64,000 nucleotides of DNA from an uncultured Bdellovibrionales bacterium (GTDB lineage Bacteria; Bdellovibrionota; Bdellovibrionia; Bdellovibrionales; UBA1609). The translations under genes and the position numbers were made by a program. Within the stretch, counting starts at the first letter, position 1; each line of letters begins with the position of its first letter. Positions 35,546-45,175 of the stretch are shown in pieces. The stretch is taken from assembly GCA_903833275.1 (NCBI GenBank), contig CAILEP010000020.1:124001-188000 (forward strand). Reading direction: 5' to 3'. A model generated the notes under the pieces. The model did not search any database. It was not told where the DNA came from and worked only from the letters and a program-made list of their open reading frames with translations.

Positions 35546-36575
35546 TGAGGCGACCTCTTTTTGCTAAATCGCGTTTAAATTTTGGCCCGAGCCACTCGAG
35601 GGCCGCGCCCGACAAGAGCTCTTTCTTCGTCTGTGCATCGAAAGCACACTGTTCAATTGTCGAGCCCGGCTTTTCTTCGCCTAACGGAAACGGATAATCG
35701 GTGCCTAAACAAACACGATTCGCTCCAAATAATTTAACAACATGTTTAAGCACAGCTGGGTCGTGAACAAGTGAGTCGACAAAAAAGCGCCCGAGATAAT
35801 CTTTCGGAGGCACGTCGCAGTCGATCGCACAAAGATCGGGTCGCGAATCGAAGCCGTGTTGTATTCGCCCCCAGGTCATCGGAAACGACCCACCGCCGTG
35901 AGCAAAGGCCACACGCAAGCGCGGAAAGCGCTTGAAAACCCCGCCAAAGATAAAAGAGCAAATGGCGCGAGAAACTTCTGAGGGCATGCCCACCAACCAG
36001 GGCAGCCAATAGTCTTTCATGTCTTTTTGCCCCATCATATCCCAAGGGTGAACAAAGATGGGGGCGTCCATGGCTTGGCACATTTCAAAAAACGGCGTGA
36101 ACTTTGGGTCAGACAAATTTTCTTGGTTTACATTTGTGCCGATTTGAAACCCAACAAGCCCCAGGGCTGAAATAGCCCGTTCACCTTCTTTAACTGCCAG
36201 GGCCGGGTCTTGCATAGGCACAGTCGCAAGGCCCGCGAAATTTCTTTGATAGCTATCGACGATGCCAGCGAGATGGTCGTTGAGAAATTGTGAAACGTAA
36301 AGACCATCTTTGGGTTTTGCCCAATAAGAAAACATAACAGGCACCGTCGAAAGAACCTGCAGGGTGACCTTGCTTTGAGCGCACTCTTTAATTCGAACTT
36401 TGGGGTCACAGCAATTGGGCATAATTCGTCTGAAAAACTTGCCCGTATCATCGTACATATCTGAATGTTTGCCGCCGGGGGCGTGACGAAGCTCAACAAA
36501 GCCGCCATAGCCGAACTGATCTTTAAATTTCGGGATATTGGGTGGCAAAATATGGGTGTGGATATCAATTTTCAT
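35535..36575 (-). CDS. nbaD: Aminocarboxymuconate-semialdehyde decarboxylase (ACMSD)
   Basis: A 346-residue amidohydrolase-fold enzyme. It removes CO2 from 2-amino-3-carboxymuconate semialdehyde, sending the kynurenine pathway away from quinolinate. The zinc ligands are seen in D-I-H-T-H-I-L-P (His6, His8), [19 protein letters not shown] and L-G-T-D-Y-P-F-P. The length matches the family. The start overlaps the dioxygenase stop by a base. Confidence 0.94.
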
Positions 36576-37135
36576 TATTTTGGAATCGCCTCAGGCTTGG
36601 TATTTTTTGGTACTTTCGAAGTGACCTCGCCGCATTTCTTGCACTTGGTAAATTCGCTTTTATAGAAGCGCTCGAACACGGCCGGAAACTGAGTTTCAAT
36701 ATTGGTCAGAGCAAAGTACTCTTCGTACAATTTGTTGCCACAGCCCTCACAAAACCAGAGCAGCCCGTCTTTCTGATGCGGCAGTCGTTTATGTTCAATT
36801 ACGAGGCCGATACTTTCAGCTGGTCGTTGTGGTGAGTGCGGTGTTTTTGGCGGCAATAAATAAACTTCGCCGGGCTCAATCTTCAGGTCGCGAAAATGGC
36901 CATTGTCATCGACGATCTTTAAAGTGAGAGTGCCTTCGATTTGCTGAAAAAACTCTTCGCCCTCGTTGTAGTGATAGTCGGTGCGAGCGTTGGGGCCGCC
37001 AACGACCATTACAATAAGATCACGATCTTGCCAGATCACCTTGTTGCCAACTGGCGGCTTGAGCAAGTGGCGGTTTTCGCGAACCCATTTGTTAAAATTA
37101 ATCGGAGTGTATTTATCAAAAAGCGGCTCGTTCAT
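36575..37135 (-). CDS. nbaC: 3-hydroxyanthranilate 3,4-dioxygenase
   Basis: A 186-residue cupin that opens the ring of 3-hydroxyanthranilate. The Fe ligands are in D-Y-H-Y-N-E-G-E-E (His55, Glu61) and P-K-T-P-H-S-P (His100). A C-terminal rubredoxin-like site is present with C-E-G-C-G and C-K-K-C-G, as in bacterial enzymes. Overlaps both neighbours (1 nt downstream, 4 nt upstream), so translation is coupled. Confidence 0.95.
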
Positions 37136-37581
37136 TTTGCCTCTCTCGGTATAGGCGAAGTATCAGAAATGGTCGCGACACACTTGAGCTCAATGGCGAT
37201 CGGGGTGGGTAGCGCCGTTACTTCAACGGTCGTTCGACAGGGTTGGCAGTCTTTAAAGTATTCAGCGTAAAGACGATTGTAGGTCGAAAAATCATCTTTC
37301 ATGTTGGTGAGATAAACCGTGACATCGACGAGCTGCGACCATGATGAGCCGACATCTTCGAGTATATTTCGCACATTCTCGAAAACGCTTCGGCACTGGG
37401 TTTCAATATCGTAACTCAAAATTTGGCCGTCGCTGTCAAGCTTGACGCCCGGGATTTCTTTGCTGGCAAGTTTGCGAGGGCCGACCCCCGAAAGAAATAA
37501 TAAAGACCCAACACGTTTAGCGTGAGGGTAAAGACCAACGGCTTGTGGTGCCCGCTTTGAATTTAAATTTTCAACCTTCAT
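37132..37581 (-). CDS. RidA-family 2-aminomuconate deaminase
   Basis: A 149-residue YjgF/RidA-type protein: [14 protein letters not shown], a central strand-helix unit and [11 protein letters not shown] near the end, with the family Arg. In this operon, between 2-aminomuconate semialdehyde dehydrogenase and the dioxygenase, it is most likely the deaminase that converts 2-aminomuconate to 4-oxalocrotonate. That function is inferred from context. Confidence 0.88.
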
Positions 37582-39053
37582 TTAGTCACAGCCATGCAAA
37601 TATTTTTTACTTCAGAGAAAAACTTGAGAGATTCAACCCCGCCCTCGCGGCCCATGCCAGAGTCTTTGACTCCGCCAAACGGTGTGCGCAAGTCGCGTAA
37701 CATCCAAGTGTTAACCCACACTACGCCGGCTTCTATCTCGCGCGAAACTCGTTGGGCGCGTTCGGCGTCGAGTGTCCAAATTGAAGCCGAGAGCCCGTAG
37801 CGAGTTGAGTTGGCGAGTTCGATAGCGTCTGCTTCGGTGTCAAAGGGTTCAATCGTTACAACGGCACCGAAAATTTCTTCTTGGTTCGTGCGGCAGCTCC
37901 AATTAAGCCCCTCAATAACAGTTGGTAAAATAAAATAACCATCGCGATTTGCGCCGCCATTAGTGTCGCCCAGGTCGGCCCGAGCACCGCCGCACAAAAC
38001 TTTGCCACCCTCGGTTTTTGCAAGTTCAATATACGATAAAACTTTTTTCATATGGGCTTCTGAAACAACGGCGCCTTGCTCGGTCGTTGGGTCTTGGGGG
38101 TCGCCGATTTTTAGTTTTTTTGCACGCTCAACGAGCGCGTCGCGAAAGCGTACATATATTTTGCGTTCAACATAAATGCGCGACCCGCAAAGGCAAATCT
38201 GCCCCTGGTTGTCGAAGCTTGATTTTACGGTCATCTCAAGGGCTTTATCAAAATCGCAATCCGCGAAAATGATATTTGGATTTTTACCGCCCATCTCAAG
38301 AGAGACGCGCTTAAATTGCGAAGCGGCTACTTGCGCAATCTTTTGACCCGTTGCAGTGCTGCCCGTGAACGAAACCGCTCGCACATCGCGATGAGAGGCC
38401 AATTCATGACCGGCGACGGGGCCTTGGCCATGCACAATATTGAGAACGCCGGGTGGTAAACCGATTTCATTGGCAATTTTGCCCAATAAGAAGGCTGTGT
38501 AAGGCGTCAGCTCTGAAGGTTTCGCGACAACCGTGTTACCTGCAGCCAGTGCGGGGGCGATCTTCCAGGTTAAAAGATAAAGCGGTAGATTCCAGGGCGA
38601 AATACAGGCCACAACCCCAAGCGGAGTGTGATCGGTTTTGTTAAGGGCCGCCGGCCGCGCCGTAGTCGCGTCGGTCAGAAAAGACTCGCCGTGAAAGTGG
38701 GTGAGAGTATCGGCAAAAAACGAAAAATTGGTGGCGCTGCGCGGGATATCAAGATTTCGGGCCAAGGAGTAGGGTTTGCCGTTGTCGTGGGCCTCGGCCT
38801 TGGCGAGCTCGTCTAACCTTTCGAGAATCTTTTTTGAAAGGCTGCGGAGGTAGTCCGCGCGTTTCAGGTAGGAGACCGCTGCCCAGGCTGGCGCGGCTCG
38901 TTTCGCCGCGGCCACAGCGTTCTCGACGTCAATTTTGTCTGAATCGGGGACCTTCGAATAGACCTTGCCGTACGCCGGCGCATAATTATCAAGGTAGCGC
39001 TGGCTGTTAGGGCCAACGAATTCGCCATTAATGTAGTTTTTTATTTGCTCCAT
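37578..39053 (-). CDS. nbaE: 2-aminomuconic semialdehyde dehydrogenase
   Basis: A 491-residue NAD-dependent aldehyde dehydrogenase taken from ATG 39053 (M-E-Q-I-K-N-Y-I-N-G). The frame extends 25 residues further, but that stretch does not look like family sequence. Catalytic Glu is in V-S-L-E-M-G-G-K-N-P-N and catalytic Cys in F-D-N-Q-G-Q-I-C-L-C-G. The cofactor loop is V-S-F-T-G-S-T-A-T-G. It is the first gene of the minus-strand operon. The weak ribosome-binding site (GGGA) and the short distance to the divergent kynU are notable. Confidence 0.93.
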   Translation of the reverse strand: MEQIKNYINGEFVGPNSQRYLDNYAPAYGKVYSKVPDSDKIDVENAVAAAKRAAPAWAAVSYLKRADYLRSLSKKILERLDELAKAEAHDNGKPYSLARNLDIPRSATNFSFFADTLTHFHGESFLTDATTARPAALNKTDHTPLGVVACISPWNLPLYLLTWKIAPALAAGNTVVAKPSELTPYTAFLLGKIANEIGLPPGVLNIVHGQGPVAGHELASHRDVRAVSFTGSTATGQKIAQVAASQFKRVSLEMGGKNPNIIFADCDFDKALEMTVKSSFDNQGQICLCGSRIYVERKIYVRFRDALVERAKKLKIGDPQDPTTEQGAVVSEAHMKKVLSYIELAKTEGGKVLCGGARADLGDTNGGANRDGYFILPTVIEGLNWSCRTNQEEIFGAVVTIEPFDTEADAIELANSTRYGLSASIWTLDAERAQRVSREIEAGVVWVNTWMLRDLRTPFGGVKDSGMGREGGVESLKFFSEVKNICMAVTK

Positions 39054-39061
39054 AGAATCCC

Positions 39062-39077
39062 GCTGGTAAAAACTAGC
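39062..39077. promoter_or_regulatory. Imperfect palindrome in the 31-bp gap between divergent kynurenine operons
   Basis: GCTGGT (39062-39067), AAAA, ACTAGC (39072-39077): six-base arms with one mismatch, centred between the start codons of nbaE (39053) and kynU (39085). A regulator bound here would block both operons. The evidence is only the position and symmetry. Confidence 0.3.
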
Positions 39078-39084
39078 ATAACAA

Positions 39085-40374
39085 ATGAATGCAAAGCTAG
39101 AATTTTCACCTGAGCTCAATTCACTCAAAGCCGCGCGCGGTTTAGATACGCGAGATGAACTGCGTGATTTTCGTTCGCAATTTCACCTGCCCGTCGCGAG
39201 AGGTTCACAAAAGGCACTTTACTTTGCTGGCCACTCGTTGGGGCTTATGCCCAAAAAAGCGCGAAGCTACATCGACACCGAGCTAGATGATTGGGCGAAA
39301 TTTGCCGTAGAGGGTCATTTTCACGCGCGACACCCCTGGTTGCCTTATCACGAAGAAGTAACGGACAGTCTTTCGCGCTTGGTTGGCGCCAATCCTGCCG
39401 AAGTTGTCGCTATGAACACCCTAACGGTGAATTTGCATCTTATGATGGTGAGTTTTTACCGCCCAACCAAAAAGCGTTACAAAATTCTAATTGAGAAAAA
39501 CACCTTCCCCTCAGACAAATACGCTGTTGATTCACAAGCCCGCTTTCACGGGCTCGACCCCCGCGATGCCATTGTCGAACTAAAAGGCGAGGGTTTGACA
39601 ATCGACGCTGACAGCGTGCTCGAGCAGATCCGAGAATTGGGTGATTCTCTGGCCCTTGTTATGTTGGGCGACTGCAATTATCTATCGGGGCAGTATTTTG
39701 ATATTGATAGAATTGTCGAGGCTTCGCATAAGACCGGGGCGCTCTGTGGGTTCAATCTCGCGCATGGCGCAGGCAATTTAAAATTATCATTGCACAACAG
39801 CGGTGTTGATTTTGCGGTTTGGTGTTCGTACAAATATTTAAATTCGGGCCCTGGCGCAATTGCTGGAGCATTCGTTCACGAAAGACACCACAAGAAGGCA
39901 GGCCCACGTTTCGAAGGCTGGTGGGGTCACGATAAAAAAACTCGCTTTCAAATGGGCCCGCATTTTCAGGGTATCCCGACGGTTGAAGCCTGGCAGTTGA
40001 GCAACCCACCGATTTTTCAATTAGCAGCGCTCAGAGCATCACTCGAAATTTTTGATTCAGCTAAAATTTCGCGCCTTCGAAAAAAAGGTGACGCTTTGAC
40101 CTTTTATCTTGAGGGTTTGCTGCGCACGACTCTTGGTTCGCAGGCCGAGATTGTGACTCCGGCGGCGCGAGGCTCAATGCTCTGTGTGCGCATTCGTGGT
40201 CAGAACAAGGCCATCATGAAAAAGCTTGAGGCCCACAATACGTTCATCGATTTTCGCGAGCCCGATATTTTTCGAATGACGCCGGCCCCACTTTATAATT
40301 CATACGAAGACTGTTTTCGTCTGGTGCAAAAATTGGACGAAGTGCTCAATCACAAGGGCAAGGGGTCGAAATAA
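39085..40374 (+). CDS. kynU: Kynureninase
   Basis: A PLP enzyme of 429 residues that cleaves kynurenine or 3-hydroxykynurenine to anthranilate or 3-hydroxyanthranilate plus alanine. Typical features: F-A-G-H-S-L-G-L-M-P near the N-terminus, M-N-T-L-T-V-N-L-H, and the PLP lysine in W-C-S-Y-K-Y-L-N-S-G-P-G. No Shine-Dalgarno is visible before ATG 39085 and only 31 bp separate it from the divergent gene, so translation may be leaderless or nearly so. The stop codon overlaps the start of kmo by 1 base. Confidence 0.95.
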   Translation: MNAKLEFSPELNSLKAARGLDTRDELRDFRSQFHLPVARGSQKALYFAGHSLGLMPKKARSYIDTELDDWAKFAVEGHFHARHPWLPYHEEVTDSLSRLVGANPAEVVAMNTLTVNLHLMMVSFYRPTKKRYKILIEKNTFPSDKYAVDSQARFHGLDPRDAIVELKGEGLTIDADSVLEQIRELGDSLALVMLGDCNYLSGQYFDIDRIVEASHKTGALCGFNLAHGAGNLKLSLHNSGVDFAVWCSYKYLNSGPGAIAGAFVHERHHKKAGPRFEGWWGHDKKTRFQMGPHFQGIPTVEAWQLSNPPIFQLAALRASLEIFDSAKISRLRKKGDALTFYLEGLLRTTLGSQAEIVTPAARGSMLCVRIRGQNKAIMKKLEAHNTFIDFREPDIFRMTPAPLYNSYEDCFRLVQKLDEVLNHKGKGSK

Positions 40375-41798
40375 TGTTGCCCGCAGAAAGACGAATTACC
40401 ATCGTCGGTGCGGGTCTCGTTGGTTCTTTTCTCGCCATTTGCCTTAAACACAAAGGTTACGAGGTCGAGATTTTCGAAAAGCGCCCAGACCCACGGGCTG
40501 GCAAGGGGGCTTCGGCCGGGCGATCGATTAATTTAATCGTTACCTCGCGTGGACTAAATGCGCTTGAAAACGCCGGCCTTCTGCCAGAAGTAATGAAAAT
40601 TGTCGTCCCGGTTTACGGGCGCGCTATACATTCGCGCGAGGGGCAAATCGCATTTCAGCCCTACGGCCGCGATCGCAGCGAATGTAACTATTCAATTTCA
40701 AGAGCGCGGTTAAATGAGTTTCTAATCGACGAAGCGGAGCGAATCGGCGTGAAAATTCATTTTTCCAAAGCGCTCTCTAGCTTAAATCTCGAACAAAAAA
40801 TGGCGCAGTTTGAAGGCGGCCCATTGGGGGGCACGGTTTCGATCGCCTATGATTTAATGCTTGTTGCTGAGGGGGCGGGTTCAGTGGCGCGCCACGAATT
40901 AGTTAAGGCTCTTGGGCCGAGCGAGCACGAAGCGACGACCTGGCTCTCAGCCGACTATAAAGAGCTTTTGATGCCCGTCGAAACGAACCAGAGCGTTGGC
41001 CTCGAGCCGCTCGATAAAAACGCGTTGCACATTTGGCCGCGCGGCTCGCATATGCTTATGGGCCTACCGAACCTCGATGGCAGTTTTACCATGACTCTTT
41101 ATTTACCCAAGCGCGGCGGGGCGACGAGCTTTGAAAAAGTAAAACGCGCCGCCGACGTCAGGAGCCTTTTTGAATCTGAATTTATCGACGCGGCCAAGCG
41201 AATGCCGAGCTATATCGACGAGTTTTTAGACCACCCGCAGGGGGCGCTTGGTACCGTGCGCACGACGAAGTGGGTTTTTAAAGATTCGCTTGCTCTGATC
41301 GGTGACGCCGCTCATGCCATTGTCCCGTTCTTCGGGCAGGGGATGAATTTGGGTTTTGAAGATTGCACTTGTTTAATGCGCGCCCTCGAAAACTCGGGTG
41401 GAGATTGGGCGAAGGCCCTCGAGCACTATGATCGCGAACAGCGGCCCAATGCTAATGCTATTGCCGACATGGCCCTCGAAAACTTTATTGAAATGGGTGA
41501 CAAGGCCGGCCGCGCTGACTTTCAACTGCGTAAAAAAATCGAATCCGCAATTGAAAGCAAATATCCCGATATTTATCGTTCGCGGTACGGGATGATCACT
41601 TACACGTTAATACCCTACGCTCTGGCGCAAGAGGCTGGTCGAATTCAAGATACAATTCTCGATGAAATTTGCGCTTCGACTCCCGAGGTGGCCGCAATCA
41701 ATTTTGCTCAAGCAAAGCATTTGATTGAGCAAAAGCTGGTGCCGTATATGAAAGCTAATAATTTAAATATCGAAAAATATAGACCGAAACGAGGTTAG
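40374..41798 (+). CDS. kmo: Kynurenine 3-monooxygenase
   Basis: A 474-residue FAD monooxygenase that hydroxylates kynurenine. The N-terminal Rossmann motif is I-T-I-V-G-A-G-L-V-G-S-F-L-A; the FAD/NADPH motif is L-I-G-D-A-A-H-A-I-V-P-F-F-G-Q-G-M-N. The segment S-A-G-R-S-I-N-L-I matches KMO proteins. Eukaryotic KMO has a C-terminal membrane anchor; the C-terminus here is helical and not strongly hydrophobic. Overlaps kynU by a base. Confidence 0.93.
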   Translation: MLPAERRITIVGAGLVGSFLAICLKHKGYEVEIFEKRPDPRAGKGASAGRSINLIVTSRGLNALENAGLLPEVMKIVVPVYGRAIHSREGQIAFQPYGRDRSECNYSISRARLNEFLIDEAERIGVKIHFSKALSSLNLEQKMAQFEGGPLGGTVSIAYDLMLVAEGAGSVARHELVKALGPSEHEATTWLSADYKELLMPVETNQSVGLEPLDKNALHIWPRGSHMLMGLPNLDGSFTMTLYLPKRGGATSFEKVKRAADVRSLFESEFIDAAKRMPSYIDEFLDHPQGALGTVRTTKWVFKDSLALIGDAAHAIVPFFGQGMNLGFEDCTCLMRALENSGGDWAKALEHYDREQRPNANAIADMALENFIEMGDKAGRADFQLRKKIESAIESKYPDIYRSRYGMITYTLIPYALAQEAGRIQDTILDEICASTPEVAAINFAQAKHLIEQKLVPYMKANNLNIEKYRPKRG

Positions 41799-41823: not shown

Positions 41824-42276
41824 CTACTCTTCGTCGTGCTCTTCGTCAGATGATTTCTCATCATCTTCATCTTCGTCGTCTTCTTCCTCTTCGTCATCAT
41901 CATCATCATCATCGTCGTCGTCAGTGCTGTGGGCGCGAAGCGAAAGGCGATCCAATTTATCCGGGTCGTCGGCTTCGACTTTAAAAAGCCAGCCCTCATC
42001 CATCGGGTCTTCTTGTAGAAGCTCAGGGTTTTCAATCACCGAATCATTAATCTCAATCACCGTACCTGAAACCGGGCTGTATAAATTAATCGTACCGTTG
42101 TCAGACTCAACTTCGCCGCAAACTTTGCCGGCCAAGACGCTGTCATCGAGTGTAGGTAAATTTAAAACAATCTGATCGGTAAGATCTGAGACCGAATCTT
42201 CGTTCAGGCCAACGGTAACGATGCCATCCTCGATCGTGATCCATTCGTAACCCATGTAGGTCATTGGTTCGCTCAT
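41824..42276 (-). CDS. GcvH-like protein without the lipoyl lysine, polyacidic tail
   Basis: A 150-residue protein. Residues 8-110 align by eye with the glycine cleavage H protein: Y-E-W-I-T-I-E-D-G-I-V-T-V-G-L, V-L-A-G-K-V-C-G-E-V-E-S-D-N-G, L-Y-S-P-V-S-G-T-V-I-E-I-N and E-G-W-L-F-K-V. In active H proteins the lipoylated lysine lies in E-S-V-K-A-A; here the segment reads E-S-D-N-G-T, so Asn60 replaces it and it cannot be lipoylated at that place. The tail from 119 is almost all Asp and Glu, which is not normal for GcvH. No gcvT or gcvP gene is near. Probably a repurposed H-fold protein; partner unknown. Confidence 0.85.
   Translation of the reverse strand: MSEPMTYMGYEWITIEDGIVTVGLNEDSVSDLTDQIVLNLPTLDDSVLAGKVCGEVESDNGTINLYSPVSGTVIEINDSVIENPELLQEDPMDEGWLFKVEADDPDKLDRLSLRAHSTDDDDDDDDDDEEEEDDEDEDDEKSSDEEHDEE
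41893..41922. repeat. TCA/TCG trinucleotide repeat in the acidic tail
   Basis: On the plus strand a run of TCA triplets followed by TCG triplets encodes the poly-Asp stretch of the GcvH-like protein on the minus strand. Such in-frame triplet repeats can change length by slippage without breaking the frame. Confidence 0.8.
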
Positions 42277-42429: not shown

Positions 42430-43197
42430 ATGAAGGCCCGGCCTGGCATACGGTCTGCACTCAAACGAATCATGAAGCAGAAGGGTCTTTTGAGGTTCAA
42501 TTTCACAATTGTTTTGACGCCTTTTTTGGTGGTCGTGGGGGCGTTTGCTGACCCCAAAACAGATTGTGCGAGCCAACTCAAGAGCCAAGAGCGTGCGGTC
42601 GAGATTGCTGGGCCGGCGGAGCGTCTGGCGATTACCGACACCTTCGCGGGTCGGCCGATCGTTTATTTAAAACCGCAAATTAACAAAGAGGCCTACGCGC
42701 GGCGCGCTGCTTTTCGCTGGCCTGAAATATTAGCGCCAAATGAGCTCACGATCGGGTTCACCGATCGCGGGCATGTCTTTTTGCAATACGATGGCCGACA
42801 AATTGAAAGCGTTGTTAGGCCAGTGCTGAAAATGAAAACGATGGTGACGGCCTCGAAATACATTCAGCCGGGGTACTTATTTGTGATCAAGAATTTACCG
42901 CCCGCGCTCGATGCGAATTTTTGCGCGTTACTGTCGCAGCTGGAGGGCGGTCGCGTTTCTTGGCTGACCACCTGTGCGCGAATCGCAGGAGTGACTCTGC
43001 AGGATTTGGGTGTCAACTTGCCGTGGGTTAATTATCAACCGGCAAAAATGGCGCAATATTTTTTCGAACTGAAGCAGCGGCACCCTGATGAGGTTGATTT
43101 GATTAACCTCTCGCAATTGCGACCGGATTCATTTTTGAATAATGTCCGCGAGTGGCAATTTAAATGGGCAAAAGCCTCAGTTGGGGTCGAGCCGTAA
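42430..43197 (+). CDS. Secreted protein, unknown function
   Basis: A 255-residue protein. A Sec-type signal helix is visible (F-T-I-V-L-T-P-F-L-V-V-V-G-A-F-A before D-P-K). The first ATG is 42430, but ATG 42472 gives a more ordinary signal peptide; neither has a clear ribosome-binding site. The mature domain has four Cys; I see no catalytic motif. It starts 153 bp from the divergent GcvH-like gene. Confidence 0.72.
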   Translation: MKARPGIRSALKRIMKQKGLLRFNFTIVLTPFLVVVGAFADPKTDCASQLKSQERAVEIAGPAERLAITDTFAGRPIVYLKPQINKEAYARRAAFRWPEILAPNELTIGFTDRGHVFLQYDGRQIESVVRPVLKMKTMVTASKYIQPGYLFVIKNLPPALDANFCALLSQLEGGRVSWLTTCARIAGVTLQDLGVNLPWVNYQPAKMAQYFFELKQRHPDEVDLINLSQLRPDSFLNNVREWQFKWAKASVGVEP

Positions 43198-43312: not shown

Positions 43313-44728
43313 TTATAGGTCGTAGTACAGGTGAAATTCGTACGGCACAGGGCGGGCCTGCATCGGGCGAACTTCGCGTTCGATCTTGTAAGAGGTCCAA
43401 GCTTCGAGAAGATCTTTTGAAAACACATCGCCTTTAAGTAAGAAAGCATGATCTTTCTCCATGCAGGCCAGCGCGTCTTCAAGCGAACCAGGTATCGACG
43501 GGATTTTCGCCAACTCTTGTGGAGGCAATCCATAAATGTCTTTGTCGAGTGGCTCGCCCGGTAGAATTTTATTCTGAATCCCGTCGATGCCGGCCATAAG
43601 CAGGGCGGCAAATGAGGTGTATACATTGGCGCTCGGGTCTGGGGTTCTGAACTCAATGCGCTTTGCTTTCGGGTTCGGGCCACTGTTCGGGATGCGAATC
43701 GCAGCCGAACGGTTCTTGTAACTGTACGCCAACTTGATCGGCGCTTCGAAACCAGGCACGAGTCGTTTGTACGAATTGGTGGTCGGGTTGGTGAACGCGC
43801 AAGTGGCCGGGGCATGCTTCAAAATACCGCCGATAAAATACAGCGCTAATTCTGAGAGGCCTGCATATTTATTGCCGGCAAAAAGCGGCTGGCCGTTCTT
43901 CCACAAAGAAATGTGAGTGTGCATGCCAGAACCGTTATCGCCAAAAATCGGCTTCGGCATAAAGGTCGCTGTTTTATTGTGACGACGGGCGACGTTTTTC
44001 ACGATGTATTTGAACCACATCATTTTGTCGGCCATCTCAAGAATTGAATCGAAGCGAATGTCGATTTCGCCTTGGCCGGCGGTGGCCACTTCGTGATGTT
44101 GTCGCTCAACGATCATTCCGCATTTTTCGAGCTCAATGCAGATTTCGGTTCGCAAGTTGTGAGTGGCATCAACCGGTAGAACGGGAAAGTAACCTTCTTT
44201 AAAGCGCGGCTTGTGGCCAAGATTGCGCCCGCCTTCTTCGCGGCCCGAGTTCCAGGTCGCTTCGTCAGAATCAATCTGATAAAAACCACCGTAAGGGCTT
44301 TGTTCGTAGCGAATAGAATCAAAAATAAAAAATTCAGCTTCAGGGCCAAAGAACGCGGTGTCGGCAATGCCAGTTGACTGCAAATAGGCCACAGCCTTTT
44401 TCACAATCTGCCGAGGGTCGCGATTGTAGGGTTCGCCGGTATCGGGGTTTGTGACGTCACAAATGAGAGAAAGTGTAGGCACATCCATAAAGGGGTCGAT
44501 TTTGCCGGTCTTGGGGTCAGGCACGACGAGCATGTCAGAATCTTCAATGCTCTTCCAGCCGCGAATCGAGCTGCCGTCAAAGCCGAGGCCATTTTCGAAG
44601 ACCTCTTCGGTCAGTTCGTAAATAGGAATGGTAAAATGTTGCCACGTACCAGGTAGATCGACAAATTTGAAGTCGACCATTCTTACTCCGCGATCTTTTG
44701 CATTTTTGATCACTTCGCTTGGGGTCAT
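43313..44728 (-). CDS. glnA: Glutamine synthetase, type I
   Basis: A 471-residue GSI-beta type enzyme that forms glutamine from glutamate and ammonia. Signatures: [21 protein letters not shown], the latch [10 protein letters not shown] and the N-R-S-A-A-I-R-I-P segment. The adenylylation tyrosine lies in D-I-Y-G-L-P-P, like the N-L-Y-D-L-P site, so control by GlnE is expected. It is downstream of glnB with 66 bp between and likely co-transcribed, ending at a strong terminator. Confidence 0.97.

Positions 44729-44794: not shown

Positions 44795-45175
<381 letters not shown>

Follow-up and report, generated by a model that had tools for sequence, protein, structure and literature searches.

A lysine is what normally defines a lipoyl or biotinyl carrier domain. 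In GcvH-L of Streptococcus pyogenes (PDB 5a35), an H-protein-like paralogue, this lysine is lipoylated. A lysine is also strictly conserved in LbpA of sHdr sulfur oxidation, a lipoylated paralogue of GcvH that does not serve in glycine cleavage, which is encoded in hdr clusters and in most cases has two conserved cysteines near its termini (PMC6067878). Another H-protein paralogue is described by the family model TIGR03077 ('not_gcvH'). Here we describe a GcvH paralogue of 150 amino acids in which the lipoyl lysine is missing, encoded on the minus strand at positions 41824..42276 of the window, the 64,000-nucleotide stretch of an uncultured Bdellovibrionales genome that was analysed. No description of this protein was found in the open-access papers searched, and the main text of a Bdellovibrio transposon-sequencing paper (PMC6561027) makes no mention of glycine, glutamine, gcv or glnA.

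The open reading frame begins with an ATG at 42276 and stops at 41824. Its product matches Pfam GCV_H (PF01597) over residues 10-112 with 85.5 bits (cut-off 22.2), and scores 85.6 bits with the NCBIfam gcvH model TIGR00527, which is below the equivalog cut-off of 115.85. Like GcvH it retains the fold along the entire chain; it is approximately 30-34% identical to solved H-proteins and keeps the structural residues W12, G23, LP, P68, G71, N77 and GW. The alignment to the solved H-proteins has no gaps, and in it the segment E57-S-D-N-G-T62 (42091..42108, minus strand) stands opposite ESVKAA; the lipoyl-lysine position is therefore occupied by Asn60 (codon 42097-42099), without any shift. A lysine at a displaced position was looked for in this gap-free alignment and was not found. 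An AlphaFold model, built with 42 orthologues, has pLDDT values above 90 across most of the core, and in it the hairpin that joins strands 52-58 and 61-67 has Asn60 at its tip. The best matches of the model in the PDB (Foldseek) are all H-proteins, with VIA-align Z scores of 15-18 against GcvH entries, and the matches beyond H-proteins are weak biotinyl- or lipoyl-type domains only. An earlier note, made from the sequence of this stretch, had proposed an H-protein fold with the lysine replaced by Asn60, and both parts of that proposal hold: Pfam, the alignment and the structural matches agree on the fold, and the residue is not lysine in any of the 42 aligned orthologues.

The paralogue differs from each of the systems described above. 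In contrast to GcvH, it has E-[ST]-[DE]-x-G in place of ESVKA, falls below the curated cut-off and lies outside a gcv operon; in many of the orthologues an acidic stretch additionally replaces the end of the C-terminal region. With LbpA it shares descent as a GcvH paralogue that would act outside glycine cleavage; however, the conserved lysine and the hdr-cluster setting of LbpA are not seen for the protein in the window, and its orthologues mostly have one cysteine or none. The S. pyogenes GcvH-L is a structural match (Z 13.1), but with only 19-20% identity, and TIGR03077 is matched weakly, at 53.7 bits, far below its cut-off of 144.05. The protein is thus a GcvH relative that fails on the lysine, on the curated cut-off and on operon context, and is neither LbpA nor a member of TIGR03077.

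The genome itself carries a second gcvH with an intact ESVKA motif, which adjoins gcvT on contig 7 (G000:C7), and a gcvP on contig 22 (G000:C22). A normal gcvH elsewhere in the genome, for which the earlier note had advised a search, is hence present, and the lysine-less gene is not the only gcvH of the cell. With normal gcvH-gcvT and gcvP located elsewhere, the paralogue is very unlikely to be the glycine-cleavage H-protein. Among the annotated neighbours around it there is no gcv or lip gene.

Orthologues were found throughout the class Bdellovibrionia, Bdellovibrio bacteriovorus included (strain kdesi, locus L116), usually alongside a normal, lysine-bearing gcvH; a search of relatives recovered the lysine-less second copy from most genomes of the order, and most near-complete genomes gave two H-protein matches, one normal and one lysine-less. 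The residue at the lipoyl position of the 42 aligned orthologues is D in 13, Q in 11, S in six, N and E in five each, and G and T in one each, and approximately eight further divergent orthologues also lack the lysine (about 50 read in total). As the lysine is missing from all 42, its absence is not a matter of chance. Gly61, on the other hand, is retained in 41 of the 42, which together with the diversity at the tip indicates that the turn of the hairpin is conserved and the residue at its tip can vary freely. No alignment column has a lysine in more than 15 of the 42 sequences, and the kdesi protein is devoid of both lysine and cysteine; covalent lysine lipoylation is thereby excluded for the kdesi protein and as a shared property of the class. 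We considered Cys53 as an alternative attachment site and rejected it, since 12 of the 42 have Ile or Leu there (Ile in Bdellovibrio). No conserved metal ligands were seen in the alignment either. The dN/dS ratio is 0.014-0.031 in close orthologue pairs and approximately 0.1 in two Bdellovibrio pairs that are further apart. Most pairs are close to saturation at synonymous sites, and one pair with a dS of 0.28 gives 0.027. The paralogue is therefore under strong purifying selection, neither decaying nor an odd single gene. It is missing, together with type-I glnA, from most of the small genomes of the window's own family, and genomes that lost it retain the normal gcvH. Two copies (G022:C8:12475-12801 and G328:C207:53638-53970) contain one in-frame TGA each, which may reflect decay, sequencing error or recoding.

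Elsewhere in the phylum, families f22 and f25-f27 contain a related clade. The lipoyl lysine is absent from f25-f27; in f22, however, eight of nine sequences (L196, L197, L198, L200, L202, L206, L213 and L215) carry lysine in the corresponding column, within an atypical motif that is typically IEG[ES]KQNFE. The notion that the paralogue is lysine-less in the whole phylum was accordingly rejected, and modification may persist in part of the wider lineage. In the phylogenetic tree the class's paralogues are united in a clade with support of 99/96 and the outer sequences in another (99/94). Both lie outside all ordinary GcvH, among which the normal H-proteins of these genomes are placed; the union of the two clades is weakly supported (89/43). 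An approximately unbiased test of a shared origin with the class's normal gcvH did not reject it (p-AU 0.13). The best reading is that this is an old paralogue rather than a recent duplicate of the class's own gcvH, a duplication that the tree disfavours and the p-AU of 0.13 leaves unrejected. Related matches outside the phylum nearly all have the lysine.

Upstream of the paralogue, on the same strand, lies glnA (43313..44728, minus strand), which encodes a type-I glutamine synthetase of 471 amino acids, preceded by a gene for a glnB/glnK-type PII protein (44795..45133, minus strand; Pfam P-II, E 2e-31). Between glnA and the paralogue the window has an open reading frame without a Pfam match on the opposite strand (42430..43197, plus strand), a counterpart of which was not seen at this place in the sampled relatives. 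Of 52 genomes that have both genes, 48 carry the paralogue in the same orientation as type-I glnA and downstream of it; the median gap is 114 bp, 38 of the genomes have gaps below 250 bp, and glnB is found upstream of glnA in many. This arrangement is part of a larger conserved block consisting of secA, a trmL-like gene, glnB, glnA, the paralogue, SpoVR, DUF444 and PrkA (secA and trmL assigned from sequence only); given that the glnBA link sits within such a block, the adjacency may reflect inherited gene order rather than function. In same-genus genomes SpoVR-DUF444-PrkA occupies the site that in the window (36575-41798, directly adjoining the paralogue) holds what resembles a kynurenine/3-hydroxyanthranilate degradation cluster, with genes read from the sequence as a dioxygenase, a RidA-like protein, an aldehyde dehydrogenase, a kynureninase and a kynurenine monooxygenase. 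A scan for promoters and terminators returned sites no more frequently than in shuffled sequences. The surroundings are different in the related clade, where the paralogue is nowhere near glnA: in f25-f27 it is followed by a gene for a HisKA-domain protein, miaB, a gene for a hexapeptide-repeat protein, and predicted guaB and guaA genes. The HisKA-domain protein is directly downstream in 10 of the 13 f25-f27 loci viewed (L226, L228, L229, L231-L235, L244 and L245); in the one such protein that was scanned, Pfam detected no ATPase domain.

The protein in the window ends in an acidic C-terminal tail (residues 119-150; 41827..41922, minus strand), of which 28 of 32 residues are Asp or Glu, as the earlier note had described. 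In the model the chain is poorly defined from approximately residue 118, and the tail has pLDDT values of 54-62 and no secondary structure. A long, strongly acidic tail is present in approximately half of the orthologues, those similar to the window's occurring in Bdellovibrio and some other lineages; the remainder end after 12-17 residues with few charges. Since about half of the family does without it, the tail is an accessory confined to certain lineages and says little about a common function. Nor is there support for added charge as the explanation of the role, as had been suggested: beyond the short, weakly acidic C-termini of that half, the core is very acidic in all aligned orthologues, and the computed pI of the normal H-protein of the same genome is likewise very low.

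Several explanations for these observations can be weighed against each other. The loss of the catalytic residue, the disappearance of the gene from reduced genomes and the in-frame TGA in the G022 copy would each fit a functionless gcvH duplicate in the course of decay. However, dN/dS is about 0.02 in close pairs and most genomes of the class have the gene intact and in the same place; for the class as a whole decay is refuted by purifying selection, and we regard its probability as close to nil. A chaperone-like, metal-binding or DNA-mimicking protein driven by the acidic tail, as the earlier note envisaged, would account for the extreme composition seen here and in the lineages with similar tails, yet a feature that is wanting in half of the orthologues cannot be their shared function, a metal role is opposed by the lack of a conserved Cys ligand, and Foldseek returns H-proteins and, beyond them, nothing but the weak carrier-type domains. 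This proposal found no support in the conserved residues, there being no metal ligands and a tip that appears free to vary, and we consider it highly improbable. An inhibitor or activator co-expressed with glnB-glnA and dedicated to glutamine synthetase I or to PII was the explanation initially favoured on the basis of gene order, with the one-strand arrangement, the short gaps and the joint absence from small genomes in its favour. It lost ground when the paralogue proved to be present in 24 of the 40 genomes that have no type-I glnA, with an unchanged location in those sampled. Furthermore, seven genomes have type-I glnA and no paralogue, the two genes are on separate contigs in three genomes (a fourth, with the genes at contig ends, may be another such case), the paralogue of the related clade is remote from glnA, and the co-occurrence of the two genes (Fisher p 0.0016) comes from a test that ignores relatedness. 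A dedicated partnership of this kind seems quite unlikely, and the data suggest that type-I glutamine synthetase is not an obligatory partner. The sampled genomes with the paralogue and without type-I glnA carry glutamine synthetases of GSIII size. Such a synthetase stands in for the missing type-I enzyme (hits in open frames of 640-776 aa) in G005, G048, G052, G053, G058, G068, G078, G082, G090 and G091, and type-I glnA has probably been exchanged for a GSIII-sized synthetase within the class more than once.

A different proposal stays closer to the chemistry of the family. As a decoy or modulator, the lysine-less H domain would bind GcvP, GcvT, Lpd or a lipoyl ligase, transferase or synthase at the customary site without being modified itself, and would tune flux or stabilise those enzymes. 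The fold and general shape of the H-protein are kept, H-proteins dock on such enzymes (the PDB matches include entries with LplA, T-protein and LIAS), and both paralogues coexist in nearly all near-complete genomes. In contrast, the annotated surroundings offer no gcv or lip gene, the normal gcvH persists where the paralogue has been lost, and the residues around the lysine that such partners would read are replaced, with a freely varying tip; we deem this proposal unlikely, although with the glutamine synthetase partner it is one of the two main rivals. What can be said with considerable confidence is that the protein is conserved, is not lipoylated and has a new role. The claim of the earlier note that loss of the modified residue signals a role other than lipoyl shuttling is in this sense upheld by the retained fold, the presence of a normal gcvH and the strong purifying selection. 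The best explanation overall, to which we tentatively assign a probability of roughly 0.4, is that a non-lipoylated H-fold protein was turned into a non-catalytic binding or adaptor protein, perhaps near glutamine or one-carbon metabolism. According to this explanation, the swinging-arm chemistry of an old H-protein paralogue would have gone with its lipoyl lysine, and the folded H domain, which was retained, would serve in protein binding without catalysis, as an adaptor or regulator that holds a partner non-covalently via the surface of the fold, the acidic tail being a putative lineage-specific accessory. The retention of the structural residues of the H-fold, set beside the replaced residues around the lysine and the variable tip, argues that the hairpin tip itself would not be the conserved contact. 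A regulatory role near glutamine or one-carbon metabolism is suggested by the usual place of the gene behind glnB-glnA and by the HisKA-domain, miaB, guaB and guaA genes that follow it in the related clade. Several observations count against the explanation: the adjacency to glnBA may be inherited order, many genomes without type-I glnA retain the gene, GlnE is encoded in the genome and already provides a usual regulator of glutamine synthetase, f22 mostly has the lysine, and a shared origin with the class's normal gcvH was not rejected. This link to nitrogen or one-carbon metabolism is plausible as a guess but is not a result, and we rate any named pathway much lower than the conserved, non-lipoylated protein with a new role. 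In its most specific form, by analogy with pseudo-enzymes, a covalent carrier widespread in Bdellovibrionota would have become a non-covalent adaptor, through which a partner protein is informed of the state of nitrogen (PII/glutamine) or one-carbon metabolism, and we judge this version to be improbable.

A paralogue whose carrier fold was kept by strong selection while the lysine disappeared class-wide, beside a normal protein, would be a clear example of a 'pseudo-carrier'. Annotations of Bdellovibrio genomes probably list the paralogue as gcvH, which bears on metabolic models of these predators, and it can be tested in a cultured, genetically tractable organism. Three further GcvH relatives were encountered in the course of the analysis. 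One genome of the Bdellovibrio group carries a third, divergent gcvH that bears the lysine in the motif ESVKN (L180; G059:C1:2627885-2628187). The two exceptions among the lysine-bearing matches outside the phylum are a GcvH-like protein with Arg in place of the lysine, which also has an acidic tail (L159:1745-2188), and one with Glu in its place, encoded directly behind an efp-like gene (L161:4962-5330).
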